A DNA stretch of 64,000 bases from Oceanomicrobium pacificus. Its GTDB lineage: Bacteria; Pseudomonadota; Alphaproteobacteria; Rhodobacterales; Rhodobacteraceae. The notes beneath the pieces are model-generated. The model was not told where the DNA came from and did no database searches. It saw nothing but the letters and a program-made list of their open reading frames with translations. Positions 7,371 through 20,931 of the stretch are shown one piece after another. Each line of letters begins with the position of its first letter. The stretch's first letter is position 1. The translations under genes and the position numbers were made by a program. The stretch covers positions 1-64,000 of the forward strand of contig NZ_WUWG01000003.1 in NCBI RefSeq assembly GCF_009833495.1, in the 5' to 3' direction.

Positions 7371-7931
7371 TTGGTACCTGCTGCCCTCAAGAAAACGGTC
7401 ACGGTCCTTTCCACACTTGGCAATGGGGTTGCCATCGGCGCGAATGTCGTTGGCACCCTCGTCGTCCTCGGACTGGTCCTGATCGTCAATTACGATGTCG
7501 TCGCGCGCGGCGTGTTCAATGCGCCGTTCCACGGTGCTGTCGAGCTGGTGCAATTCTCGATGGTGCTCGTTGTTTTCCTGCAATTGCCCGATGTGGTGCG
7601 GGTCAACCGGCTCACGCGGTCCGACGGGTTTCTTGCCGTGATCGGCCATAGCCGCCCGAAACTGGCCGCCGCCATCCGGCATGTGATCGATACGGTCTCC
7701 GCCATTTTCATGACTCTGATCGCCGTAGCCATCTGGCCCGAGTTCACCGACATGTGGGAGAGCAAGGATTATTTCGGCGTGCCGGGCGTTTTCACCGCGC
7801 CATGGTGGCCGATCAAGCTGGTCATATTCCTCAGCGCGACATTGTGCGCCGTCATTTTTGCCCTGAAGGTGCTGAGCCCGGCTCCGCGTCCCGAACGGGT
7901 CCGACTTCCCGAACATGAGGACACAGAATGA
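7371..7931 (+). CDS. dctQ: TRAP transporter small permease (DctQ family)
   Basis: A four-helix membrane subunit. Hydrophobic spans are VVGTLVVLGLVLIVNYDVVARGVF, AVELVQFSMVLVVFLQLP, IDTVSAIFMTLIAVAIWPEFT and LVIFLSATLCAVIFALKVL. The family's conserved NYDVVARGVFNAPFHGAVEL motif lies at the end of the first helix. I prefer a TTG start at 7371 (186 aa), 9-10 bases after AGGAAAGG, over the upstream GTG at 7317, which would overlap dctP by 20 bases and add a polar tail. The stop overlaps the dctM start (ATGA). It bridges the binding protein and the DctM channel in the inner membrane. Confidence 0.85.
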   Translation: MVPAALKKTVTVLSTLGNGVAIGANVVGTLVVLGLVLIVNYDVVARGVFNAPFHGAVELVQFSMVLVVFLQLPDVVRVNRLTRSDGFLAVIGHSRPKLAAAIRHVIDTVSAIFMTLIAVAIWPEFTDMWESKDYFGVPGVFTAPWWPIKLVIFLSATLCAVIFALKVLSPAPRPERVRLPEHEDTE

Positions 7932-9235
7932 GTCCCGTAGAAATCGGCGTGGCTTCCGTCATCGCCATCGTCATCCTGATCTATATGGGTGTCTATATTC
8001 CCATCGCGCTCGGGGTGGTGTCCTTCGTGTCCATCTGGCTGATGCGGGACAATTTCGACCTTGCCATGAACTTGTTGAAGATCGCGGTTGGCGACAGTGT
8101 CATGGAGTATACTTTTGCGACCGTGCCGCTCTTCACCTTCATGGGGCTGGTGGTGTCAAAAGCTGGACTAGGCAGCGACATTTACGGCGTGATGAGCTCG
8201 GGCTTCCGGCGCGTGAAGGGCGGGATCGGCATGGCCACTGTCGGCGCAAATGCCGTGTTCGCAGCCGTCACCGGATCTTCCATCGCCTCGGCTTCGGTTT
8301 TCTCCAAAGTCTCGGTGCCGCAGATGCTGCACTACGACTACAATCCGCGCTTTGCAGTGGGCGTGGTTGCGGGGTCCTCGGTGCTGGGCATGATCATTCC
8401 GCCATCGGCCATGCTGATCATCTACAGTTTCGTGGCCGAACAATCGGTCGGGGACATGTTCCTTGCCGGCGTCGTGCCGGGCCTGATGCTGGCCGCAGCC
8501 TATGTCGCCGCGATTTGGTTCATGGGACGGTTCTTTCCCGATTTCGTCGGAGGGCGGCCGGCCGAAGGATACGAGCGGATGCCCTGGCGTGAAATCGCGT
8601 CCAAGACCTTGCCGACGCTGGGGTTGATCGTGGTCGTGCTCGGCGGGATCTACACTGGCTGGCTGACCCCGGTCGAGGCCGGCGCGACCGGTTCGCTTGT
8701 CGCGCTCCTGATTGCCGCTGTGCGTCGCAGAATGACCTCCCGCGGACTGTGGGAAGCGCTTCTGGAGACCGGACATATCACCGCGTCCATTCTGTTCCTT
8801 GTGACGGCGGCATCGATCTACAGCCGGATGCTTGGTCTGGCCGGACTTCCCAACGAGCTGGGGGATATGCTGGCGGGATCGAATGCCAGCTTCTTCATGA
8901 TCATGCTGCTCTATGTGCTTCTGATGCTCTTTCTGGGGACGCTGCTCGATACCGCGTCGATCATCCTGATCGTCGTGCCGCTCTTCCTGCCCTTGGTGGA
9001 GCCGATGGGCCTGAGTCTCGTCTGGTTCGGCATCATCACTGTCGTCGGCGCGGAGATCGGCCTTCTGACACCGCCGCTCGGGATTTCCTGTTTCGTGATC
9101 AAGGCAACGCTGAACGATGACCGGATTTCTCTCAAGGACGTGTTTCTCGGCGCGCTGCCCTTCGCGGGTGTGATGCTCATCATTCTCATCCTGCTGATCC
9201 GCTACCCCGCGCTCAGCCTGTACATTCTGAACTAG
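7928..9235 (+). CDS. dctM: TRAP transporter large permease (DctM family)
   Basis: A 435-residue multi-spanning channel subunit that couples sodium-driven import to the DctP-bound ligand. It has around a dozen hydrophobic segments. Family hallmarks are TGSSIASASVFSKVSVPQMLHYDYNPRFAVGVVAGSSVLGMIIPPS near residues 115-160 and the C-terminal repeat counterpart IITVVGAEIGLLTPPLGISCFVIKA. It starts by ATGA overlap with dctQ and is followed 12 bases later by the dioxygenase gene, so the transporter and the ring-cleavage enzyme are almost certainly co-transcribed. Confidence 0.92.
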   Translation: MSPVEIGVASVIAIVILIYMGVYIPIALGVVSFVSIWLMRDNFDLAMNLLKIAVGDSVMEYTFATVPLFTFMGLVVSKAGLGSDIYGVMSSGFRRVKGGIGMATVGANAVFAAVTGSSIASASVFSKVSVPQMLHYDYNPRFAVGVVAGSSVLGMIIPPSAMLIIYSFVAEQSVGDMFLAGVVPGLMLAAAYVAAIWFMGRFFPDFVGGRPAEGYERMPWREIASKTLPTLGLIVVVLGGIYTGWLTPVEAGATGSLVALLIAAVRRRMTSRGLWEALLETGHITASILFLVTAASIYSRMLGLAGLPNELGDMLAGSNASFFMIMLLYVLLMLFLGTLLDTASIILIVVPLFLPLVEPMGLSLVWFGIITVVGAEIGLLTPPLGISCFVIKATLNDDRISLKDVFLGALPFAGVMLIILILLIRYPALSLYILN

Positions 9236-9247
9236 GAGGCGACACCT

Positions 9248-10120
9248 GTGCGCTCTGTTACCAAAGACAATATCACCGAGGTGTTCGCGGCCTATTTCGG
9301 GGACGATACCGATCCGCGCACGCGTGAACTCCTGATCGCGCTTGCGCAGCACGTCCATGATTTCTGCCGCGAGACCAACCTGACCCATGACGAATGGCGC
9401 AAGGGGCTGGAGTTCCTCGAATGGGCCGGCCGGATCACGTCGCCGGAACGCAACGAGTTTGTTCTCCTGTCGGATGTGCTCGGCATGTCCTCGCTGGTCG
9501 ATATGCAACATTCGGTTGACGGCGCGACCAGTTCATCCGTGCTCGGACCGTTCCACGTTTCCAACCCACCGCCGCTCGCGGTCGGCGGTGACATGAAGCG
9601 GGACTTCGAGGGCGAGGTGCTGCTGGTCGAGGGCACCGTGAGGGACATGGACGGCAATCCGATTCCGCACGCCAAGATCGACATCTGGCAGACGGCGCCG
9701 AATGGCATGTATTCCAGTCAGGATCCTGATCAGGACCTGCACAGTTTCCACGGGCTGATGACGGCGGATGCTGACGGGCGCTACGCGTTCACGACCGTGC
9801 GTCCCGTGAGCTACACGGTGCCCGACGATGGTCCGGTCGGCGAAATTCTCCGCGCGGCGGGCCGGCATCCGTGGCGGCCATCGCACCTGCACTATATCGT
9901 GTCTTCGCCGGGCTACCGGACTCTCGTGACCGAAGTGTTCCCCGATGATGATCCCTATCTCGACCAGGACACGGTTTTCGGTGTGAGGGACGATCTGGTC
10001 ATGCATTACGTGCCGCAACCGGCGGGCAGCTTTCCCGACGGGTTTGCTTTGTCTGGGCAGGTCACGGAAGCCTATAGCCGCGTTGATTTCGATCTTGTGC
10101 TGGCGCCGGAGGAAACCTGA
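9248..10120 (+). CDS. Intradiol ring-cleavage dioxygenase (catechol/hydroxyquinol 1,2-dioxygenase-like)
   Basis: A 290-residue non-haem Fe(III) dioxygenase. The N-terminal helical dimerisation domain (about 1-110) precedes the beta-sandwich catalytic domain. The four iron ligands are visible: Tyr155 in NGMYSSQDPD, Tyr189 in SYTVPDDGPVG, and His213 and His215 in RPSHLHYIVS. The two-domain layout fits catechol or hydroxyquinol 1,2-dioxygenases rather than single-domain protocatechuate subunits. The start is GTG at 9248 with GGAGGCGAC before it. It is the last gene of the nitroreductase-OsmC-TRAP operon. No muconate cycloisomerase or maleylacetate reductase is present, so the cleavage product must be handled by unusual enzymes or elsewhere in the genome. 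Confidence 0.9.
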   Translation: MRSVTKDNITEVFAAYFGDDTDPRTRELLIALAQHVHDFCRETNLTHDEWRKGLEFLEWAGRITSPERNEFVLLSDVLGMSSLVDMQHSVDGATSSSVLGPFHVSNPPPLAVGGDMKRDFEGEVLLVEGTVRDMDGNPIPHAKIDIWQTAPNGMYSSQDPDQDLHSFHGLMTADADGRYAFTTVRPVSYTVPDDGPVGEILRAAGRHPWRPSHLHYIVSSPGYRTLVTEVFPDDDPYLDQDTVFGVRDDLVMHYVPQPAGSFPDGFALSGQVTEAYSRVDFDLVLAPEET

Positions 10121-10162: not shown

Positions 10163-10846
10163 TCAATCCTCGAAATATTCGCGGCGGGTGTTGTAGATCT
10201 TCTCGACCGTCGGATCGAGCCGCATCAGGTGGCGGCGGATGACCTCTTCGGTCCGCAGCACATCGCCGCCGCGCAGCGCCGCGACAAGGTCCTCATGGTC
10301 CACGATCAGCTCTTCCATGCTTTCCTTGCTGGTCAGCGACAGGATGCAGAGCCGATCGATCTGGGTCTTGTTGGCCGCGATCGTGCGGAAGGCGAAAGCG
10401 GCGCCTGACGCTTCGCAAAGCAGTTCGTGGAACCGGTAGTCGAGCCCGTGGAACCGGTCTACATCGCCGACCGCCACCGCTTCCCGCTGGGCGTCGAGAT
10501 TCTCGTCGATCCGGTCGTCATGGCGGCCGGTCCAGTTGCGGGCGCCCTTGCGCAGGACCTCAACCTCGACCGCGGTGCGGATGAAGCGCGCATTCTCGAT
10601 CCCCTCGCGGGAGAACTGGCGCACCTCGGTTGCCTTCTGCGGGCGGATCAGGAGCAGGTTCTGGAGGCCGAGCCTGTTGAACGCGTCGCGCACGGGCTGG
10701 CGGGACACGCCGAACCTCTTGGCGACTTCCGCTTCGGAAATCTTGTCGCCCGGCAAGAGCGACAGAGACACGATTTCCTCATACAGGTGGTCGTAGACGA
10801 TATCCGCGCTCGTGCGGCGTTCCCCTACCTCGTTCAAAACGGCCAT
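10163..10846 (-). CDS. GntR family regulator (FCD domain), probable alginate-regulon regulator
   Basis: A 227-residue regulator. The winged helix (about 10-75) includes IVYDHLYEEIVSLSLLPGDKI, AEVAKRFGVSRQPVRDAFNRL and the FSREGIE linker. The FCD effector domain has the metal-site motifs GLDYRFHELLCEAS and late VDHEDLVAAL. I place the start at ATG 10846, preceded by GAGGAGAGG, rather than at the upstream TTG. A strong palindrome lies 22 bases upstream (10868-10885), and its core recurs before the alginate uptake operon (13056-13069). It therefore probably represses itself and the alginate genes, with an unsaturated uronate or KDG-like ligand as inducer. The gene order resembles the Agrobacterium alginate locus, which also carries a GntR regulator as I recall. 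Confidence 0.87.
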   Translation of the reverse strand: MAVLNEVGERRTSADIVYDHLYEEIVSLSLLPGDKISEAEVAKRFGVSRQPVRDAFNRLGLQNLLLIRPQKATEVRQFSREGIENARFIRTAVEVEVLRKGARNWTGRHDDRIDENLDAQREAVAVGDVDRFHGLDYRFHELLCEASGAAFAFRTIAANKTQIDRLCILSLTSKESMEELIVDHEDLVAALRGGDVLRTEEVIRRHLMRLDPTVEKIYNTRREYFED

Positions 10847-10867: not shown

Positions 10868-10885
10868 TGGTATACTAGTCTACCA
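10868..10885. promoter_or_regulatory. GntR-type operator palindrome (autoregulatory)
   Basis: TGGTATACTAGTCTACCA reads nearly the same on both strands (only one base pair per half breaks symmetry). TGGT/ACCA ends with a central CTAG are typical for uronate-type FCD regulators. It is placed just upstream of the regulator's ribosome-binding site. The 10-mer ATACTAGTCT is shared with the site at 13056-13069. Confidence 0.7.
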
Positions 10886-11073
10886 ATCCCGTCCATCCCC
10901 TAGCGCTCTCCGGCCCGACAGCGGGTGCAAACGGGAGTATGCGGGGCATGAAAGAGCGGCAGATGGGCCGACACAGGGCATTGCAAGCGAATGCTGACCC
11001 GTGGTCTATGGCACAGGAGGGGCTCCTCTTCTAGAGTGAAGCCGGATCAAAGCGGTGCCGGAGGATCGATAGG

Positions 11074-11391
11074 ATGGCAAAGGACGGACATTCGGACTGG
11101 GTGGTCACCGGACCCGGCGCGCGGCGGCGGGTGCTGTCGGACAGCCCCGACCTGATGCTCGTGCTCTTCGATTTCGAGGAAGGGGCGGTCGGCCCGATCC
11201 ACCAGCATCCGCATGTGCAGGGCACCTACGTGGCGTCCGGCCGGTTCCTGTTCGAAGTAGACGGCGAAGAGCGGGAACTGAATCCCGGCGACAGCCTCGT
11301 CATCCCGGGTGACACGCCGCACGGCTGCACCGCGCTGGAAGCCGGGCAGCTAGTCGACAGTTTTACACCGCGCCGCGACGATTTCCTCTGA
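11074..11391 (+). CDS. kdgF: KdgF-like cupin, unsaturated uronate linearisation
   Basis: A 105-residue single cupin. The metal site is HQHPHVQ (His43, His45, Gln49) with His83 in DTPHGC. The rest follows KdgF closely: TYVASGRFLFEVDGEE, NPGDSLVIPGD and the C-terminal LVDSFTPRRDDFL, which carries the Asp/Arg residues required in KdgF. KdgF converts 4,5-unsaturated uronate monomers from pectin or alginate into their linear ketone form (DEH/DKI), feeding the SDR reductase. Located between the regulator and the alginate uptake operon, it completes the pathway between the PL15 lyase and the DEH reductase. Start ATG 11074 after GAGGATCGATAGG. Confidence 0.88.
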   Translation: MAKDGHSDWVVTGPGARRRVLSDSPDLMLVLFDFEEGAVGPIHQHPHVQGTYVASGRFLFEVDGEERELNPGDSLVIPGDTPHGCTALEAGQLVDSFTPRRDDFL

Positions 11392-11406
11392 CCGCGGCCG
11401 CGGTGC

Positions 11407-12720
11407 TCAATCCTCCGGTATGCCCCGCGCGATGGCCGCGCCTGCTGCAATGGCCAGCGTTACGATCAGGAGTGTCAGCGCGCGGAAGAGGTCCATCTCC
11501 AGCGGACCGAACCGGATCACGCCGCCGCCTGCATTGAACGACAGCACGAGCCCGCCGAGCGCGGTCAGCCCCGCCATGAACAGCTGGTTTGCGGCGGTCA
11601 GGATGTTGATCGCGTGGAACCCGTCCTCGTCATTCACATAGCGCGCCTGATACATGGACCCGGCCATCATCTGCCCGGCATCGAGAATGCCGGCGAGGAA
11701 GTTGAACCCCAGGATCGCGCCGACACCGATGAACCAGGCCCGGCCATGGTCCGGCACGGTGGCGAAATCGGGCACCAGCAGCAGGATCGGGTAGAGGCCC
11801 AGCACACAGGTGAAATAGAGCAGGAAGATCCGCCGCTCGCCATGCCGGTCCGCCTGACGGCCCCAGATGAACACACTGAAGATCGGGCCAAGCATGTTGG
11901 CCACCACACTCAGCATCAGGATCGAGGCCGGCATGTTCAGCGTTCCGACCAGATAGAGCGTGAGGATCGGCCAGTGCAGGATGCCGATGATGAAGGCAAG
12001 CGCGAGCGGCCGGCGCAGAAGGCGGCTGTGCCGCAGGGTCGACCAGAAATGCCCTTTGCCGGAAAATGCCTGCAACTGTCCGGGTGGCGGCTGCGAAGGG
12101 ATGCGGAAGAGCCAGTAGAGCGAGTTCAGAAGCAGCAGGATCACGACGACGAGCAGGATGCTGTGTTCCGTCCGGTCCAGAAGGTCGCCCACCAGCAACC
12201 AGCCGAACAGCGCGAAGGCGAGATTGGTAAACTGCTTGCCGGTCCGCAACCGGCCGAGAAATGCGCCTCGGTCACCGCGCGCTGTCACTTCGGCCACGAA
12301 ATTCGTCCAGACGGCGTTCTGCAGGAACTCGTTGCCGAAGACGAAGAGCGCCGCGATGCCGAAGAGCACCGGCAGGCTGATCCAGTCTGTGGGAAGGCAG
12401 AGCAGCAGGAGCAGGCAGGCCAACTGGATGAACCGCGCGGCAATGGTCACGTCGCGGCGCGGGTAGCTTCGGATCCGGTCGAGGAACGGGTAGCGCAGGA
12501 GCACCACGAGCGGCAGCAGCGCCAGCATGGTGCTGATCTGACCGTCGCTGAACTGCATGACCTGCACGGCGAAGGCGACGAAGAACGGACCGGTCAGCAT
12601 GTCCTTCGACAGCGAGCCGAGAAATGTGGAGCGGATGAGCTTTGTCTGCGCATCACGCTGGGCCGGCGTTGACGTGGCGCGGCGGGGCAGGGGGCGCGGT
12701 TCGGTCACGGGTGCATGCAC
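11407..12720 (-). CDS. MFS transporter
   Basis: A 437-residue major facilitator with about twelve hydrophobic helices. The N-terminal half contains KDMLTGPFFVAFAVQVMQFSDGQISTMLALLPL and the loop 2-3-like RIRSYPRRD; the C-terminal half contains FIWGRQADRHGERR, the equivalent charged loop. It is convergent with kdgF and divergent from the alginate ABC operon, whose operator region it shares. Import of unsaturated monouronate/DEH or export of a pathway product is plausible; no substrate can be read from sequence. Start is GTG at 12720. The convergent 3' ends are separated by the perfect 14-base palindrome ACCGCGGCCGCGGT (11391-11404). Confidence 0.8.
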   Translation of the reverse strand: MHAPVTEPRPLPRRATSTPAQRDAQTKLIRSTFLGSLSKDMLTGPFFVAFAVQVMQFSDGQISTMLALLPLVVLLRYPFLDRIRSYPRRDVTIAARFIQLACLLLLLCLPTDWISLPVLFGIAALFVFGNEFLQNAVWTNFVAEVTARGDRGAFLGRLRTGKQFTNLAFALFGWLLVGDLLDRTEHSILLVVVILLLLNSLYWLFRIPSQPPPGQLQAFSGKGHFWSTLRHSRLLRRPLALAFIIGILHWPILTLYLVGTLNMPASILMLSVVANMLGPIFSVFIWGRQADRHGERRIFLLYFTCVLGLYPILLLVPDFATVPDHGRAWFIGVGAILGFNFLAGILDAGQMMAGSMYQARYVNDEDGFHAINILTAANQLFMAGLTALGGLVLSFNAGGGVIRFGPLEMDLFRALTLLIVTLAIAAGAAIARGIPED

Positions 12721-13009
12721 CTGCCAGCGGTTCGAGCCGAATCACGCTGGACTGCCGTCATCGGTCTGATCGCGGCGTGACATGACGGCTTCTTGTCCGC
12801 TGACTGGCACTGGTGCCGAATAGATTTCCGCATCGATTCAGGCGCTTCGGTTCCGCTCAGGAAAAGCGCCGGGCGCAAGGCGGAAAGATTGCTTTTGCGC
12901 GTGCAGCGGCCTTGCCCCGCGCGCGATAGCCACCGCTTTCGGCCCGCGCGTGAAATTTTCTTTGACCCTAACATAATGTTTTCAGAACGATTTTCTTCCA
13001 CTTGCCATG

Positions 13010-13069
13010 TTGTAATGACCAATTTTACAAATCCTGTCTTGCCACATGACTACTAGGATACTAGTCTCC
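13010..13069 (+). promoter_or_regulatory. Control region of the alginate uptake operon with GntR operator
   Basis: GGATACTAGTCTCC at 13056-13069 is an imperfect dyad with the same ATACTAGTCT core, centre and asymmetry as the site before the regulator gene at 10868. A possible promoter TTGCCA-N17-TAGTCT (13039-13067) would place the operator over the -10 box, fitting repression. Just upstream, TTGTAA (13010-13015) and TTACAA (13025-13030) form a second perfect 6-bp inverted repeat, possibly for another regulator. The whole gap from 12721 to 13136 otherwise holds nothing recognisable. Confidence 0.62.
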
Positions 13070-13136
13070 ATTTCAAGCTGGATCGCCCCGTCTGTCGGCA
13101 GAGATGATCCGCACCAAAACAGGTTTGGGAGGACCA

Positions 13137-14243
13137 ATGTCGGGTGTCACGCTTGACCGTGTAGTCAAGGAATACGGAAATCTTCAGGTTGTCCATGGCG
13201 TCGACCTGCATGTCGCACCGCAGGAATTCGTGGTGCTCGTCGGTCCTTCCGGATGCGGAAAATCCACCACCTTGCGGATGATCGCGGGGCTCGAGGAAAT
13301 CTCGGGCGGCACCGTCACGATCGATGGCCGCGTGGTCAACCGGGTCGCGCCGAAAGACCGCGATGTGGCGATGGTGTTCCAGAACTATGCGCTCTATCCG
13401 CATCTGAACGTGGCGGACAATATCGCCTTCGGTCTGCGCATCCGCCGCACGCCCAAGGCGCAGATTGCCTCCACGGTGGAGGAAGTCGCGGGCATTCTCG
13501 GCCTGACGGACTATCTGGAACGCCGTCCGGCCGACCTGTCGGGCGGCCAGCGCCAGCGGGTGGCCATGGGCCGCGCGATCGTGCGCAATCCCAAAGTGTT
13601 CCTGTTCGACGAGCCGCTCTCGAACCTCGATGCGAAGCTGCGCACCCAGATGCGGGCCGAGATCAAGCGGCTGCACAAGCGGCTTGGCGCGACCAGCATC
13701 TACGTGACCCATGACCAGGTGGAGGCGATGACGCTGGCCGACCGGATCGTGGTGATGAGCGACGGGCGGATCGAACAGGTCGGCACGCCGATGGACCTGT
13801 TCCTCAATCCTGCCAACACGTTCGTTGCGGCCTTCCTCGGCTCGCCTCCGATGAACATGATCGACGCGACTGTGCGCGGCGGTGACGCCGGCCCGGTGGC
13901 CGAGTTCCACGGCCAGTCGATCCGGCTCGGCAACATCCCCGAACTGGCACAGGCCGACGGGCGCAAGATCACGATCGGCATCCGCCCCGAATATGTGACC
14001 CTGTCCGAGGCCGAGGCCCAGAACCCTGTTGATATCTCGCTCGACCTGATCGAGACGCTCGGATCCGAGGCGCTCCTGCATGCCACGCTCGGGGACAAGC
14101 CCTTCGTGATGCGCGCGCCCACCGAGGGCGATATCGACCGGCTGAACGGCGTGTCGAAATTCCATATCGACCCGTCGCTCGTCCATGTGTTCGACGGCGA
14201 GACCGGGCGTGCGATGCCCGCGGCGCAGGACGCCGCGGCATGA
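13137..14243 (+). CDS. ABC transporter ATP-binding protein (AlgS/MsmX/UgpC type)
   Basis: A 368-residue ATPase of the carbohydrate CUT1 type. Walker A GPSGCGKSTT, Q-loop FQNYALYPHL, signature LSGGQRQRVAMGRA, Walker B VFLFDEPLSNLD and switch His in YVTHDQVEA are all intact, followed by a TOBE-type C-terminal domain of about 120 residues. Start is ATG 13137, directly after GGGAGGACCA; the frame is open 11 codons further. It overlaps the next permease gene by ATGA. In context it energises import of alginate oligosaccharides through the two downstream permeases, as AlgS does in Sphingomonas. Confidence 0.92.
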   Translation: MSGVTLDRVVKEYGNLQVVHGVDLHVAPQEFVVLVGPSGCGKSTTLRMIAGLEEISGGTVTIDGRVVNRVAPKDRDVAMVFQNYALYPHLNVADNIAFGLRIRRTPKAQIASTVEEVAGILGLTDYLERRPADLSGGQRQRVAMGRAIVRNPKVFLFDEPLSNLDAKLRTQMRAEIKRLHKRLGATSIYVTHDQVEAMTLADRIVVMSDGRIEQVGTPMDLFLNPANTFVAAFLGSPPMNMIDATVRGGDAGPVAEFHGQSIRLGNIPELAQADGRKITIGIRPEYVTLSEAEAQNPVDISLDLIETLGSEALLHATLGDKPFVMRAPTEGDIDRLNGVSKFHIDPSLVHVFDGETGRAMPAAQDAAA

Positions 14244-15235
14244 GCATCTTCAACCCCAAGATGGGCGGCCCGGTGGAGGAGCGGATTGCCCTCGCCGAGG
14301 AAGCCCTGCATGACACCGAGCGCGGGCGCATCACCAAGGTGGGCGACCATCTGAAACGCGAGTGGCAGCTATACCTGATGCTGCTGCCGCTCCTGATCTG
14401 GCTGCTCGTCTTCCTCTACAAGCCGATGTACGGGCTCCAGATCGCTTTCAAGGACTATTCGATCTTCCGCGGCGTCGCAGCGAGCCCGTGGATCGGGTTC
14501 GAACATTTCGAGACCCTTTTCGGCAACGAGCAGTTCCTGCGGGCGGTGAAGAACACCGTCATCATCAGTTTCTACGGATTGCTGTTCGGATTTCCGGTGC
14601 CGATCATCCTTGCGCTGATGTTCAACGAGATCCTGAACAAGACGTTCAAGAAATCGGCCCAGACCATCGTCTATCTGCCGCATTTCATCTCGTCGGTGAT
14701 CATCGCGGGGATCGTCATCACCGCATTCTCGCCCTCGGCCGGCATCGTGAACACGGCGCTTGGCTGGTTCGGGATCGACCCGATCTACTTCCTGACCAAA
14801 CCCGAATGGTTCCGCCCGATCTTCATCGGCACGGGCATCTGGCAGGAGGCGGGCTTCCAGTCGATTGTCTATCTGGCCGCCATCGCCGGCGTGTCACCCA
14901 CGCTCTACGAGAGCGCGGTGGTCGACGGTGCCTCGCGCTGGCAAATGATGTGGAAGATCACGCTGCCCTCGATCCTGCCGACGATCATCATCATGCTGAT
15001 CATCCGGATCGGGAACATCCTCGAAGTGAGCTTCGAGATGGTGATCCTGCTCTACCAGCCGGCCACCTACGAGACGGCCGACGTGGTCAACACCTTCATC
15101 TATCGCCAGGGCATCCAGGGCGGCCAGTATGACATGGCCGCCGCGGCAGGGCTCTTCAACGCCGTGGTCGCCTTCGTCCTCGTGATGACCGCGAACACGA
15201 TCTCCAAGCGCTACTCGCGCACGTCGCTCTGGTGA
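14240..15235 (+). CDS. ABC transporter permease (AlgM1/LplB type)
   Basis: A 331-residue inner-membrane subunit. A cytoplasmic N-tail of about 45 residues precedes six helices. The EAA loop reads ESAVVDGASRWQMMWKITLPSI, the contact site for the ATPase. Similarity in layout is to the LplB/YtcP-associated permeases that import large oligosaccharides, including AlgM1. ATGA overlap with the ATPase gene; the next permease begins 13 bases downstream. Confidence 0.9.
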   Translation: MSIFNPKMGGPVEERIALAEEALHDTERGRITKVGDHLKREWQLYLMLLPLLIWLLVFLYKPMYGLQIAFKDYSIFRGVAASPWIGFEHFETLFGNEQFLRAVKNTVIISFYGLLFGFPVPIILALMFNEILNKTFKKSAQTIVYLPHFISSVIIAGIVITAFSPSAGIVNTALGWFGIDPIYFLTKPEWFRPIFIGTGIWQEAGFQSIVYLAAIAGVSPTLYESAVVDGASRWQMMWKITLPSILPTIIIMLIIRIGNILEVSFEMVILLYQPATYETADVVNTFIYRQGIQGGQYDMAAAAGLFNAVVAFVLVMTANTISKRYSRTSLW

Positions 15236-15248
15236 GGGGGAACAACCG

Positions 15249-16130
15249 ATGTTCAACATGAGCCTCTATTCCCGCGGGGACCGGATCTTCGTTATCGTCA
15301 ACATGGTGCTGATCGGCCTGTTCGCCATCTCCACGCTCTATCCGTTCATCTACATTGCCGCCCTGTCGCTGAGCTCCGGCTTCGAGGCGCGGGCCGGCAA
15401 CGTGGTGCTGACCCCGGTCGAGTTCACCATCGAGGCCTACAAATACGTGCTCTCGGACAGCCAGTTCTGGATCTCCTACAAGAACACGTTCATCTACACG
15501 ATCGGCGGCACGCTGATGAGCCTCGCGTTCATCATCCCCGGTGCCTATGCGCTGTCGCGGCCGCAGCTTTACGGGCGGCGGTTCTGGAACCTCACGGTGG
15601 CATTCACCATGTGGTTCAACGCGGGCCTGATCCCCTTCTTCCTCAACATGCGCGACCTCGGGCTGCTCGACAGCTATTTCGGGATCATCATCGGCTTTGC
15701 GGTGAACGGGTTCAACGTGATCCTGCTGCGCAACTTCTTCGAGAGCGTTCCGAAGAGTTTCGAGGAAGCGGCGCGGATGGATGGTGCCAACGAGTTCCAG
15801 GTGCTGTGGAAAGTCTATGTGCCGCTTTCCAAACCGGCCATCGCGACGGTCGCGCTCTTCTGCATCGTCTCGCGCTGGAACGGCTTCTTCTGGGCGATGG
15901 TGCTTCTGCAGGACGAGGACAAGATTCCGCTTCAGGTCTTCCTGCGGCACACGATCGCGACCCTGTCCGACGATCAGGAATTCGGCACGACCCTGATCGA
16001 TGCGGCCTATTCGTTCGAGACCGTGTCGGGCGCGATCATCGTCTGCTCGATCATCCCGGTCCTGATCGTCTACCCGTTCATCCAGAAATACTTCGAGAAG
16101 GGCATCCTTCTCGGGGGTGTCAAAGAATAA
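15249..16130 (+). CDS. ABC transporter permease (AlgM2/YtcP type)
   Basis: A 293-residue partner permease with six helices. The EAA loop is EEAARMDGANEFQVLWKVYVPLSKPAI. It ends with the IIPVLIVYPFIQKYFEKGILLGGVKE tail that is characteristic of the YtcP/LplC group. The start follows GAGGGGGAACAACCG. Together with the preceding permease it forms the translocation pore for oligosaccharides delivered by the binding protein at 16156. Confidence 0.9.
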   Translation: MFNMSLYSRGDRIFVIVNMVLIGLFAISTLYPFIYIAALSLSSGFEARAGNVVLTPVEFTIEAYKYVLSDSQFWISYKNTFIYTIGGTLMSLAFIIPGAYALSRPQLYGRRFWNLTVAFTMWFNAGLIPFFLNMRDLGLLDSYFGIIIGFAVNGFNVILLRNFFESVPKSFEEAARMDGANEFQVLWKVYVPLSKPAIATVALFCIVSRWNGFFWAMVLLQDEDKIPLQVFLRHTIATLSDDQEFGTTLIDAAYSFETVSGAIIVCSIIPVLIVYPFIQKYFEKGILLGGVKE

Positions 16131-16155
16131 TCGATAAACGCAACAGGAGGAAAAT

Positions 16156-17721
16156 ATGCGGAAATCGACACTGATCGGCGCTCTGCTCGCCGGATCGACA
16201 CTGGGGGGAGGCGCGGCATATGCCGACGACCATCTCCGGATCGTCGACGAGCCCCTGGAACTGACCATCCAGATGAACCACGCCCGCTACCCGGTCTATG
16301 AGGAAAGCTGGCCGGTCGAGCAGGCCGCGCGCGAACTGACCGGCATCCACCTGAAGGACGCGACCGTCGGCGCCAACATGCGCACCGACGAGAATACCGG
16401 CAAGACCGAGGCGCTGAACCTGATGCTGGCGACGGGCAACATCCCCGATATCGTCGGGTCGAGCCGCCTGAAAGACTTCGTGAACCAGTACGGTCCCGAA
16501 GGCGCTTTCGTGCCGCTCAACGATCTGATCGAAGAGCATGCGCCGAACCTGAAAGCCTATTTCGCGGAGCGCCCGGAAATCGCCGCGGCCATCTCGGCGG
16601 CTGACGGGAACATGTACTACATCCCCTACCTGCCGGACGGCAAATACGGCCGCGCCTACTTCATCCGCTACGACTGGCTGGAGAAACTGGGCCTCGAAGT
16701 GCCGGAGACCGTGGAAGAGGTCGAAGAGGTGCTGCGCGCCTTCAAGACCCAGGATCCGAACGGCAATGGCATGCAGGACGAAGTGCCCTTCTTCGCCCGC
16801 CAGTGGCCGGAGCTGATCCGTCTCGTGACGCTCTGGGACGGCCGGTCCTCGGGCTCCGACACCTATCACGATTTCTACGTCGACAATGGCGAGCTGAAGC
16901 ACCCCTATGCGGGCGAAGGCTATCGCGACGGGATCTCCAACCTCGCGCGCTGGTATGCCGAAGGTCTGGTGGATGCCGAAGTGTTCACCCGCGGCTCCTC
17001 CGCGCGTGAATATCTCCTGTCCGAAGATCTGGGCGGCATGACCCACGACTGGTTTGCGTCCACTTCGGGCTATAACCGCCTGTCGGAAAGCATCGAGGGC
17101 TTCGAGTTCAAGGCCTTCGCCCCGCCGGCATCCGTGTCCGGCAAGCGGATCGAGGAACATCGCCGCATTCCGATCAAGCCCGACGGATGGGCCATCGGCG
17201 GCATGAACGAGCATCCGGTCGAGACGATCAAGTATTTCGACTTCTGGTTCACCGAGGAAGGCCGCCGTCTGGCCAACTTCGGCGTCGAGGGCCAGCAGTA
17301 TGAAATGGTCGACGGCAAGCCGAAGTTCACTGACGCGGTGCTGAACAGCGACCAGCCGGTGAACAACCAGCTCTACGGTGTCGGCGCGCAGCTTCAGGCG
17401 CGTGGCTACTTCCAGGACTATGCCTACGAAGAGCAGTGGTCGAACGAGTTCGCGCTCGAGGGCATCGCGCTCTATGACCAGGGCGACTACCTGATCGACC
17501 AGTTCCTGGGCGTGGCGTTCGATGCCGAGGAGCAGAAGGTCTACGACCGCTACTGGCCGACCATCCGCGACTATATGCTGGAGCGCCAGCAGGGCTGGAT
17601 CCTGGGCAATGGCGATGTCATGGCCGAGTGGGACGACTATCTCGCGACGCTCGATGACATGGGCTACCAGGACGTGCTCAAAGTCATGAACTCGGCCTAC
17701 AAACGCCAGTATGGCGGCTGA
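16156..17721 (+). CDS. Alginate-oligosaccharide-type ABC substrate-binding protein (AlgQ-like)
   Basis: A 521-residue periplasmic binding protein with a signal peptide (about 1-23, AAYA/DD). The size is that of AlgQ1/AlgQ2 rather than the usual 420 residues. A calcium-loop motif, DPNGNGMQDE at residues 200-209, matches the EF-hand-like site seen in AlgQ proteins. LATGNIPDIV and the aromatic-rich C-terminal lobe support oligosaccharide binding. It is followed by a perfect 11-bp-stem hairpin before the lyase gene, so high relative abundance of this mRNA segment is likely. Alginate specificity rests on the neighbouring PL15, KdgF and SDR genes. Confidence 0.88.
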   Translation: MRKSTLIGALLAGSTLGGGAAYADDHLRIVDEPLELTIQMNHARYPVYEESWPVEQAARELTGIHLKDATVGANMRTDENTGKTEALNLMLATGNIPDIVGSSRLKDFVNQYGPEGAFVPLNDLIEEHAPNLKAYFAERPEIAAAISAADGNMYYIPYLPDGKYGRAYFIRYDWLEKLGLEVPETVEEVEEVLRAFKTQDPNGNGMQDEVPFFARQWPELIRLVTLWDGRSSGSDTYHDFYVDNGELKHPYAGEGYRDGISNLARWYAEGLVDAEVFTRGSSAREYLLSEDLGGMTHDWFASTSGYNRLSESIEGFEFKAFAPPASVSGKRIEEHRRIPIKPDGWAIGGMNEHPVETIKYFDFWFTEEGRRLANFGVEGQQYEMVDGKPKFTDAVLNSDQPVNNQLYGVGAQLQARGYFQDYAYEEQWSNEFALEGIALYDQGDYLIDQFLGVAFDAEEQKVYDRYWPTIRDYMLERQQGWILGNGDVMAEWDDYLATLDDMGYQDVLKVMNSAYKRQYGG

Positions 17722-17739
17722 ATAGCTGACTTGAAAACC

Positions 17740-17770
17740 GGGACGCGCGCAACCCGACCGCGCGCGTCCC
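17740..17770 (+). terminator. Intercistronic GC hairpin after the binding-protein gene
   Basis: GGGACGCGCGC (17740-17750) pairs perfectly with GCGCGCGTCCC (17760-17770) around a 9-base loop, 18 bases after the binding-protein stop and 33 before the lyase start. There is no T-tract. It is probably a partial terminator or 3'-end stabiliser that keeps binding-protein mRNA in excess of lyase mRNA. Confidence 0.72.
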
Positions 17771-17803
17771 ACTCAACCTTCCCGCATTTCGGAGATCAAT
17801 TGC

Positions 17804-20188
17804 ATGTCAACGGACGCACCTTCTTTGTCCAATGTGACCCTCGACGAACCCGCTGCCGGCCGGCTGAACATCCAGTATGCGCCGACCGAAACCAGCGTGC
17901 TTGCCGAGAACCCGCCGCGCTTCACGTGGTTGCCGGTCATCGAGGACGAGGCGCGCTACATGCTCCGCCTGTCAGCCGATCCGGCCTTCCCGGATGCAGA
18001 CACGACGGTGATCACCGATCTGCCGCTCAATTTTCATACGCCCGACACGGCGCTGGCCCCGGGCAGCTATCACTGGTCCTACGCCGTCTGGGACCCAGCC
18101 GGAGGGGCGCGTGCCTCGGACTGGAGCAGCACGCGCAGCTTCACCGTCGCGGATGGCCTGCCCGAGACGCCGCTGCCCGGACGCGCGGCGCGCTACGCCA
18201 AGGCCGGCAAGGCGCATCCGCGCCTCTGGCTCGATGCCAAGGCGCTCAAAAGCTTCTCTGCTGCGGTGGCCGCCGACGCGGATCATTGCAACTGGCAGAC
18301 CTTTTTCGACAAATCCGTCCAGCCGTGGATGGACCGCGAGATCATGGAAGAGCCGGCCGGCTATCCCGGCCACAAGCGCACGGCAGATGTCTGGCGCGCG
18401 ACCTATATCGCCTGTCAGGAATTGATCTACGCGATCCGCCATCTGGCCATCGCGGGCAAGGTCACCGGCGATGCCGCCCTGACGGCGCGGGCCAAGGACT
18501 GGCTGCTGGCCGTGGCCGAATGGGACCCGGCGGGCACGACATCGCGCGGATATACCGACGAATGGGCGTTCCGCGTGAACGTGGCGCTCGCATGGGGCTA
18601 TGACTGGCTGCATGACGACCTGTCGGACGACGAACGGGACCGCGTGCGCGACGCGCTGCTCGCCCGCACACGCGAGACCGCCGACCATGTGATCCGGCAT
18701 GCGACCATCCATGTCTTTCCCTATGACAGCCACGCGGTGCGCGCCGTCTCCGCCGTGCTGGTGCCGGCCTCGATCGCGCTCCTTCACGATGCCGAGGAGG
18801 CGCGGGACTGGCTCGACTATTCGATCGAGTTCCTGTCGACCGTCTATTCGCCCTGGGGCGACAGCGACGGCGGCTGGGCCGAGGGGCCGCATTACTGGAT
18901 GACCGGCATGGCCTATCTGACGGAGGCAGCCAACCTTTTGCGCGCCTATGTCGGCATCGACCTCTACAAACGGCCCTTCTTCCAGAAGACGGGCGATTTC
19001 CCGCTTTACACCAAGGCGCCTGATACGCGCCGCGCGACCTTCGGCGACGACAGCACCATGGGCGACCTGCCCTGCCTCAAGATCGGCTACCTTCTGCGCC
19101 AGTTCGCGGGCGTCACCGGCAACCGTGCCTATCAATGGTATTTCGAGGAGATCTGCCGCAACGATCCGGGCACCGAGGGCGCCTTCTACAATTACGGCTG
19201 GTGGGACCTTAATTTCGACGATCTGGTCTATCGCCACGATTTCCCCGAAGTGGACGCTGCGGCCCCGCCGGCCGAGGAAGCGCTGCGCTGGTTCCGCGGG
19301 ATCGGCTGGGTCGCCATTCAGGAGCGGATGGACGATCCAGACGGTCATATACAGTTCGTGATGAAGGCTAGCCCCTACGGGTCGATCAGCCACAGCCACG
19401 GCGATCAAGGGGCCTTCTGTCTGGCCGCTTTCGGGGAGGATCTGGCGATCCAGTCCGGCCATTACGTCGCCTTCAACTCCACCATGCATCAGGGCTGGCG
19501 GCGCCAGACCCGGTCGAAGAACATGCTGCTGATCGACGGGCAGGGGCAATATGCCGACAAGGACAAGGCGCGCGCCCTGCGGGCCACGGGCCGCATTCTG
19601 GAGGCGACGGAACATCCCGACCATGTCTGCATCCGGGCGGACGCAACTGCCGCCTATGCCGAGGTCGACCCTGACATCACGCGGGTCGAGCGCGATGTCT
19701 ATTTCGTCAACAAGAGCTATTTCGTCATCGTCGACCGGGTGGATGCCGAACGGCCGGTGACGCTCGATTTCCTTCTGCATGCCAACGGGCCGATGCAGCT
19801 TGGCGAGACGACCTTCCGCTATACCGGCGAACGGGCCGGCTTCTACGGCAAGCTCCTCTGGTCGGAGGCCGGTGCCGCCACGCTCACGCAGGAAACAGGT
19901 TTTCCGGGCGTCGACCCGGCGGAATATGAGGGGCTGCCCGTCAGCACCTGCCTGAAGGCGCAGTTCCCCAAAGCCCGCCACCACCGGATCGCGACGCTGC
20001 TCGTGCCCTATCCGCTGGCGGCACCGCGGCGCGTCTTCTCCTTCCTCGATGACCAGGGATACGACTGCGACCTCTATTTCACCGACGCCGAGGAGCGCAG
20101 CTTCAAGGTCGTCGTGCCAAAGACTTTCGACATCGGTCGCCGGCTGGAGGCCGGTGATCCGAGCAACAGCAAAGGGACAAAATCATGA
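17804..20188 (+). CDS. Exo-oligoalginate lyase (PL15, heparinase II/III-like)
   Basis: A 794-residue polysaccharide lyase. It has an N-terminal beta domain (PPRFTWLP, DUF4962-like), a central alpha/alpha toroid and a C-terminal heparinase II/III-like beta sandwich with SISHSHGDQGAF. His310 (YDSHAVR), Tyr364 (GPHYWMTGM) and His530 (SHSHGD) fall one position from His311, Tyr365 and His531, which I recall as the active-site residues of Agrobacterium Atu3025, a PL15 exotype alginate lyase of similar length. No signal peptide is evident, fitting intracellular release of unsaturated monouronate from imported oligomers. Start ATG 17804 after GGAGA; ATGA overlap with the SDR gene. Confidence 0.88.
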   Translation: MSTDAPSLSNVTLDEPAAGRLNIQYAPTETSVLAENPPRFTWLPVIEDEARYMLRLSADPAFPDADTTVITDLPLNFHTPDTALAPGSYHWSYAVWDPAGGARASDWSSTRSFTVADGLPETPLPGRAARYAKAGKAHPRLWLDAKALKSFSAAVAADADHCNWQTFFDKSVQPWMDREIMEEPAGYPGHKRTADVWRATYIACQELIYAIRHLAIAGKVTGDAALTARAKDWLLAVAEWDPAGTTSRGYTDEWAFRVNVALAWGYDWLHDDLSDDERDRVRDALLARTRETADHVIRHATIHVFPYDSHAVRAVSAVLVPASIALLHDAEEARDWLDYSIEFLSTVYSPWGDSDGGWAEGPHYWMTGMAYLTEAANLLRAYVGIDLYKRPFFQKTGDFPLYTKAPDTRRATFGDDSTMGDLPCLKIGYLLRQFAGVTGNRAYQWYFEEICRNDPGTEGAFYNYGWWDLNFDDLVYRHDFPEVDAAAPPAEEALRWFRGIGWVAIQERMDDPDGHIQFVMKASPYGSISHSHGDQGAFCLAAFGEDLAIQSGHYVAFNSTMHQGWRRQTRSKNMLLIDGQGQYADKDKARALRATGRILEATEHPDHVCIRADATAAYAEVDPDITRVERDVYFVNKSYFVIVDRVDAERPVTLDFLLHANGPMQLGETTFRYTGERAGFYGKLLWSEAGAATLTQETGFPGVDPAEYEGLPVSTCLKAQFPKARHHRIATLLVPYPLAAPRRVFSFLDDQGYDCDLYFTDAEERSFKVVVPKTFDIGRRLEAGDPSNSKGTKS

Positions 20189-20931
20189 ATCTCAAGGGCA
20201 AGACAGCCATCGTCACCGGCGGTGGCCGCGATATCGGGCGGGCATGCGTCATGGCGCTGGCGGAAGCCGGGGCAAATGTCGCCATCAACTATCATTCGAG
20301 CGCCGAGGGCGCCGAGAGCGCGGTGGCCGAGATCACGGCCAAGGGCGGCAAGGCCTTCGCGATGAAGGGCGACATGACGAACCCCGATGATGTGAACGCG
20401 CTTGTCGACCGGGCCGCGTCCGAACTGGGGGGCGTGGACATTCTGGTCAATAACACGGGCGGTCTCATCGGCCGGAAATCCATCCTCGAGATGGATCTCG
20501 ACCATTGGCAGAAGGTAATGGACCTGAACCTCACCTCCATCTTCCACGCCGTGAAAGCGGCCGTACCGCGGATGAAGAACGGCGGCGCGATCGTGAACAT
20601 CGCCAGCCAGGCCGGTCGCGACGGCGGTGGCCCGGGCGCCGCGGCCTATGCCACCTCGAAGGGCGCGGTCATCACGCTGACACGCGCGCTGGCCAAGGAG
20701 CTCGGCCCCGATATCCGGGTCAATTCCATCAACCCCGGCATGATCGACACGGATTTCCACAACATCTTCACCAAGGATGCCGTGCGCACCGCCGTGGCCA
20801 ATGCCACGCCGCTCAAGCGCGAAGGCCGCCCCGAGGAAGTGGGCGATCTGGTCGCCTATCTGGCGTCGGACAAGGCCAGCTTCATGACCGGCGCGTCGGT
20901 GGATCTGAACGGCGGTACCGTCTTCTCCTGA
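20185..20931 (+). CDS. SDR oxidoreductase, probable DEH reductase
   Basis: A 248-residue short-chain dehydrogenase. The cofactor loop is TGGGRDIGRA (TGxxxGxG form), NNTGG replaces the usual NNAG, the catalytic Ser lies in NIASQAG, and AYATSKGA gives Tyr-x3-Lys. Family-level sequence alone would only say FabG-like. The ATGA coupling to a PL15 lyase, as in the Agrobacterium Atu3025-Atu3026 pair, makes reduction of 4-deoxy-L-erythro-5-hexoseulose uronate (DEH) to 2-keto-3-deoxygluconate the best call. KDG kinase and KDPG aldolase are not in this window. Confidence 0.82.
   Translation: MNLKGKTAIVTGGGRDIGRACVMALAEAGANVAINYHSSAEGAESAVAEITAKGGKAFAMKGDMTNPDDVNALVDRAASELGGVDILVNNTGGLIGRKSILEMDLDHWQKVMDLNLTSIFHAVKAAVPRMKNGGAIVNIASQAGRDGGGPGAAAYATSKGAVITLTRALAKELGPDIRVNSINPGMIDTDFHNIFTKDAVRTAVANATPLKREGRPEEVGDLVAYLASDKASFMTGASVDLNGGTVFS

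Follow-up and report, generated by a model that had tools for sequence, protein, structure and literature searches.

An ACTAGT-centred candidate operator connecting a GntR/FCD regulator with an alginate importer operon and an unlinked hexuronate-type TRAP operon in Oceanomicrobium pacificus

Alginate is a major marine carbon store. According to a 2021 survey of polar alginate degraders, the transcriptional control of alginate use is still poorly known (PMC7874173). The window analysed here, namely the first 64,000 nucleotides of contig NZ_WUWG01000003.1 of Oceanomicrobium pacificus (assembly GCF_009833495.1), poses this question in a specific form. A GntR-type regulator gene and an alginate uptake operon are each preceded by a short palindrome, and a preliminary description proposed that both serve as operators for a single regulon governed by this protein. 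Are they, and which genes would they place under its control?

The regulator gene occupies 10163..10846 on the minus strand, and its assignment as GntR/FCD draws on Pfam PF00392 and PF07729, conservation, and a structural model with its structural matches. Divergent from it, across the first palindrome, runs a gene for a KdgF-like cupin (11074..11391, plus strand; PDB 5fq0 KdgF, E 4e-25), and an MFS transporter gene follows at 11407..12720 on the minus strand (Pfam PF07690). The alginate operon extends from 13137 to 20931 on the plus strand. Its first gene encodes an AlgS-like ABC ATPase (13137..14243; Pfam and NCBIfam, orthologues 68-76% identical), after which come an AlgM1-like permease (14240..15235; PDB 4tqu chain M, AlgM1, E 6e-132), an AlgM2-like permease (15249..16130; Pfam, with orthologues and the operon order kept), an AlgQ-like alginate-binding protein (16156..17721; PDB 3vlu AlgQ1, E 1e-166, and 4tqu AlgQ2, E 2e-162), a PL15-type oligoalginate lyase (17804..20188; PDB 3a0o oligo alginate lyase, 1097 bits), and a short-chain dehydrogenase (SDR; 20185..20931; Pfam and PDB 4yqy), whose position suggests a DEH reductase role. 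The operon is thus as the preliminary description had it when it named the ABC-lyase-reductase genes as a target, and the site before it is conserved in relatives. Adjoining the regulator, a DctM-type TRAP gene and then a catechol 1,2-dioxygenase-like gene span 7928-10120. These two genes are without an operator of the kind described below, and the window's own TRAP DctM gene (7928-9235) is left out of the regulon.

Putative operator 1 (10868..10885, TGGTATACTAGTCTACCA) is an 18-bp dyad with one unmatched pair, located in the divergent gntR/kdgF region and starting 22 bp 5' of the gntR ATG. Putative operator 2 (13056..13069, GGATACTAGTCTCC) is a 14-bp dyad, also with one unmatched pair, set in the 22-bp frame ACTAGGATACTAGTCTCCATTT (13052-13073); its core lies 78 bp before the start of the algS-like gene, for which we use 13137. 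Both imperfect dyads are centred on ACTAGT and hold ATACTAGTCT in common, so that the core, centre and T/C asymmetry are identical, as had been claimed. Within the window these two places are the only matches to ATACTAGTCT, also when one mismatch is allowed; the mean for shuffled windows is 0.30 matches, and two matches arise in 2 of 100 shuffles. A scan of the genome (3.26 Mb, 10 contigs), which the preliminary description had proposed, turns up no crowd of unrelated copies: there are three exact matches to ATACTAGTCT against none for the reversed control, and the sole extra copy precedes a uronate TRAP operon. ACTAGT itself occurs at 15 places in the genome, versus 871 for its reversed control, and the flanks are present only at operators 1 and 2 and the TRAP site.

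A weight matrix built from 81 sites of relatives, picked for their ACTAGT core, scores operator 1 at 25.3, operator 2 at 23.2 and the TRAP site at 22.9, while the other 12 genomic cores, with poor flanks, score at most 10.9 and the best unrelated position of the window 5.1. A de novo motif search of the relatives' upstream regions, with the core not fixed and the window left out, returns the same motif (ATACTAGTATACCA from AlgS upstream regions and a motif containing ATACTAGT from TRAP upstream regions) and ranks operators 1 and 2 first and second in the window. The looser pattern GGWNACTAGTNWCC, with one mismatch allowed, yields three further places only, no more than its reversed control. 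Each palindrome is short by itself, and a chance likeness of two AT-rich palindromes was considered; we rejected it on the genome counts, shuffles and matrix scores. The three genomic copies all lie before genes of the regulon, none of 19 million shuffled positions matches the scores of the three sites, and conservation in relatives reaches two Granulosicoccaceae MAGs, all of which leave chance with a negligible probability. The shared palindrome is confirmed as real and well beyond chance.

The third copy of ATACTAGTCT (contig C3, 956611-956620) falls within TTGACAGGACTGGTATACTAGTCTTCTACA, 944 kb from the window sites. The corresponding putative operator, C3:956607-956624, lies approximately 140 bp before a TRAP operon encoding DctP, DctQ and DctM, whose DctP is the only close protein of its kind in the genome. 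It matches known hexuronate binders, namely 4ovq (558 bits, and 70% identity in structural alignment), 4pf8, 4p1l, 4n15 (E 3e-69) and 4mhf (E 1e-66), the last of which is described as binding D-glucuronate and D-galacturonate (PMC7660916). These matches place DctP inside the hexuronate-binding cluster, with its ligand predicted from sequence. Residues R148, R169 and N210 are invariant in five sequences, and their positions are comparable, on a comparison made without formal alignment, to Arg150, Arg170 and Asn210 of STM3169 (PMC7660916). The DctP model is poor (pLDDT 60), and hence we used only sequence matches and entry titles. Taken in this way, the data support a predicted regulon larger than the one first proposed, one that takes in an unlinked hexuronate-type TRAP transporter. 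Approximately 1.1 kb 3' of this TRAP operon lies a gene for a mandelate racemase/enolase-superfamily protein (L063:12735-14027, contig C3), possibly a sugar-acid dehydratase.

Two further genes had been put forward as regulon members. The KdgF-like gene shares the divergent region of operator 1 but lies 201 bp from it, and its control by the regulator is possible and no more than that. The start of the MFS gene is 339 bp from operator 2, and because of this distance its proposed membership is unsupported.

Judged from its domains and its model, the regulator is a VanR-type member of the GntR family, FCD subfamily. An N-terminal GntR winged helix-turn-helix domain (PF00392, 55.5 bits) and a C-terminal FCD domain (PF07729, 76.9 bits) both score above cut-off, and the model (pLDDT 89.6) finds its best full-length structural match in 7u5q (Z 27.4, rmsd 2.6, 217 aligned residues), with further matches to AlkR/VanR (Z 22.9, rmsd 2.3, 206 aligned), PmiR (20.5) and McbR (20.1). 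Residues D136, H140, H184 and H206, the Asp/His/His/His set of FCD domains, are conserved in 61 of 61 clade members. The FCD pocket probably contains a metal, and since this invariant set fits the FCD metal site, an acidic effector would be expected.

To ask how far the sites follow this protein, we searched for the regulator in 295 genomes of the family and in GTDB contigs, and fetched the neighbourhoods of approximately 60 relatives (40-58% identity). Most of these carry an ACTAGT palindrome 5' of the AlgS operon, of the same TRAP operon, or of an SDR-TRAP operon, the SDR gene being the first gene of the TRAP operon in many relatives. Often the palindrome sits between the target operon and the regulator, and in some relatives (e.g. 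L056 and L061) regulator, alginate operon and TRAP operon stand side by side. Either ATACTAGT or ACTAGTAT is present in 22 of 24 AlgS upstream regions, whereas each control palindromic hexamer occurs in 0-3 of these regions; the exception, GTATAC (19 of 24), overlaps the motif. ACTAGT is likewise carried by 47 of the 67 upstream regions of clade regulator genes. In the regulator tree, 61 sequences form one clade (support 99) that holds the window protein and nearly all sites; the outgroup comprises six rows, of which L103 alone has a core close by. A TRAP-linked subclade (18 rows) and a mostly alginate-linked subclade (25 rows) are found within the clade, and the window protein falls into neither with support.

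The comparison across genomes bears on whether another regulator with an overlapping ACTAGT motif controls these promoters, the neighbouring GntR protein being a passenger. Among 29 genomes with an AlgM1 gene, 25 have a clade regulator and four lack one; the 350 bp next to AlgS contain an ACTAGT core in 23 of the 25 and in none of the four. The hypergeometric probability for zero of four is about 6e-4, an approximate figure because the sampled genomes share descent and the counts are not fully independent. In two genomes (G200 and G225) the clade regulator is present and the core before AlgS is absent. In three of the four genomes without the clade, the alginate region that we fetched is free of ACTAGT; in the fourth (G256), a similar site precedes that genome's own, different GntR gene (30% identity) and does not lie directly before AlgS. 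The site in G256 speaks for a separate regulator to the extent that the motif may not be exclusive to this clade. Against this, the sites track the clade, they also lie 5' of the clade's own genes, and the source genome contains only one protein of this clade; we regard a passenger role as very improbable. Our computation demonstrates the sites, the membership of the regulon and its tie to this regulator clade. Conservation and the clade link accordingly support the earlier view that both sites act as operators within a single regulon, and the co-occurrence of clade and sites makes it likely that this GntR protein is the one that regulates.

Several neighbouring cases were seen in the same survey. 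In L056, L061 and others, the alginate operon and the TRAP operon each have a clade paralogue as neighbour, and the operators of the two are nearly identical; in the source genome a single regulator has to serve both. In L121, L122 and L124, which lack a clade regulator, a different GntR gene (~30% identity) lies directly before algS, which suggests regulator replacement at the same operon. A separate regulator group (L045, L047, L049, L050 and L054; support 100) has an ACTAGT operator and is linked to another TRAP transporter; with just 27-30% identity, the DctP of this system possibly serves another uronate.

How would binding at these sites act on transcription? Of 42 TRAP/SDR sites, 22 have a TTGACA hexamer (at most one mismatch) at a distance of exactly 10 bp before the core. 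This is the only enriched offset, and the genome's own TRAP site shares it. At TRAP-type sites the operator therefore fills the -35/-10 spacer, the classic position of a repressor, and it is at these sites alone that the promoter geometry is clear. At the AlgS promoters of relatives the better half-site faces the gene and the TTGACA spacing is absent. Sites doubled 20 bp apart amount to nine pairs over all loci, mostly at these AlgS promoters, and operator 2 has no second site at this distance. Promoter scans find no overlapping consensus sigma-70 promoter at operators 1 and 2, and the suggestion that operator 2 covers a possible -10 box is left unsupported. Since operator 2 is single and lacks a consensus promoter, occlusion there is something that we infer. 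Operator 1 lies 22 bp 5' of the regulator ATG, and the ribosome-binding site GAGGAGAGG, directly before the ATG, lies between the two, an arrangement that suggests autoregulation.

The explanation that we favour, and consider highly probable as a whole, is that the palindromes are operators of the 10163-10846 repressor and that a breakdown product releases the alginate and TRAP operons. Without substrate, the repressor would sit 22 bp before its own start codon in an autoregulatory position, some 70 bp ahead of the alginate operon, and in the -35/-10 spacer of the unlinked hexuronate TRAP operon, where it would stand in the way of RNA polymerase. Growth on alginate or uronates would supply an acidic intermediate that enters the FCD pocket and releases the repressor. 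This intermediate would most likely be KDG or DEH, the meeting point of the alginate and hexuronate pathways. Because the two routes converge at KDG, KDG itself, or DEH if the TRAP transporter carries alginate monomers, would be the most economical effector. That the protein physically binds, that it represses and does not activate, and which effector it senses are points that we infer. The same protein at the same sites might instead activate the alginate operon, or both activate and repress it. The missing TTGACA spacing at AlgS sites and the lack of a consensus promoter at operator 2 would suit activation, and tandem sites 20 bp apart at the relatives' AlgS promoters could recruit polymerase. 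The TRAP-type sites, however, fall inside the promoter spacer, and AusR (PMC8286568) and NanR (PMC8012715) are both described as repressors, so that activation appears improbable, though less so than a passenger role.

The form of the operator departs in part from that of known relatives. The published FadR-subfamily consensus consists of TKGT/ACMA boxes at a GT-to-AC spacing of 2-3 nt (PMC4494728), whereas the invariant centre of the sites described here is AC-TA-GT, and for this reason the canonical FCD consensus fits only partly. Operator 1 holds the overlapping pairs TGGT-AT-ACTA and TAGT-CT-ACCA, whereas operator 2 has no GGT box, and the earlier claim of FCD-type operators holds only in part. 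In one reading, the core could serve two dimers at once, with TGGT-AT-ACTA overlapping TAGT-AT-ACCA. E. coli NanR, an FCD GntR repressor, recognizes an operator of closely spaced GGTATA units (PMC8012715). GGTATA occurs once in operator 1 and the regulator weakly matches the NanR model (NCBIfam NF003011, 55.4 bits, below the cut-off of 260); NanR, in contrast, uses direct GGTATA repeats where the arrangement here, as seen in the consensus of relatives, is inverted around ACTAGT, and operator 2 has no GGTATA. UxuR/ExuR and the UxuPQM TRAP system resemble the present case in the FadR-subfamily GntR control of hexuronate use, and DctP matches hexuronate binders (4mhf; PMC7660916). UxuR sites, however, are single palindromes in which 2 nt separate GT from AC, rather than having an AC-TA-GT centre, and, in distinction to the UxuR/ExuR regulons, one main target here is the alginate importer-lyase operon. 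Elsewhere in the Rhodobacteraceae, a GntR protein named UxuR is the predicted regulator of an ABC operon for glucuronate (PMC5507952).

A more elaborate model, which we offer as speculation and hold to be somewhat unlikely in its entirety, is a composite operator at which two FCD dimers would share ACTAGT, with inverted TRGTATAC-like units every 8 bp and a 20-bp doubling before alginate operons. One KDG/DEH-sensing repressor would in this way couple polysaccharide importers with unlinked monomer TRAP importers in marine-type Alphaproteobacteria and some Gammaproteobacteria.

Two regulators of alginate use offer the nearest analogues, each likened here by description only. AlgO occupies the DNA between algO and algS until alginate oligosaccharides release it. 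Its gene, algO, has the role of a transcriptional regulator in Sphingomonas sp. A1 (PMC8286568), encoded, as here, with an alginate ABC importer of the AlgS/M1/M2/Q kind; it differs in that the operator family described here extends to an unlinked uronate TRAP operon, and in that kdgF and the MFS gene separate operator 2 from the regulator. AusR of Zobellia galactanivorans is likewise a GntR-family regulator of alginate catabolism, which it represses until alginate-derived metabolites appear, with its operator in single to triple copies (PMC7874173, PMC8286568), but AusR serves a flavobacterial PUL. A literature search of incomplete coverage, without RegPrecise, found no published description of the motif or of a coupling between alginate and TRAP operons, and no TRAP-alginate-GntR link; for the operator letters this covers the 20 of 57 records listed, none of which is a regulatory paper on the motif. 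The regulon and operator appear to be undescribed so far, and would represent nutrient control of an ordinary kind with AlgO and AusR as analogues. A single operator motif across a bacterial family makes this a regulon ready to test, with exact DNA fragments and candidate effectors now named and with the prediction that alginate uptake and the hexuronate TRAP importer would be switched together. Where the ACTAGT core is rare, such regulons may be found by one DNA pattern.

The alginate leaders of relatives show one further feature. Within at most 130 bp, CGAATC or GATTCG occurs in 16 of 25 such leaders (e.g. L089, L090, L061 and L056) versus 0 of 30 TRAP leaders, against a background of 0.03 per 130 bp. 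Both hexamers contain GANTC, the CcrM-type methylation site. The window's own leader is without them, and in the alginate leaders of relatives they lie mostly 3' of the operator.
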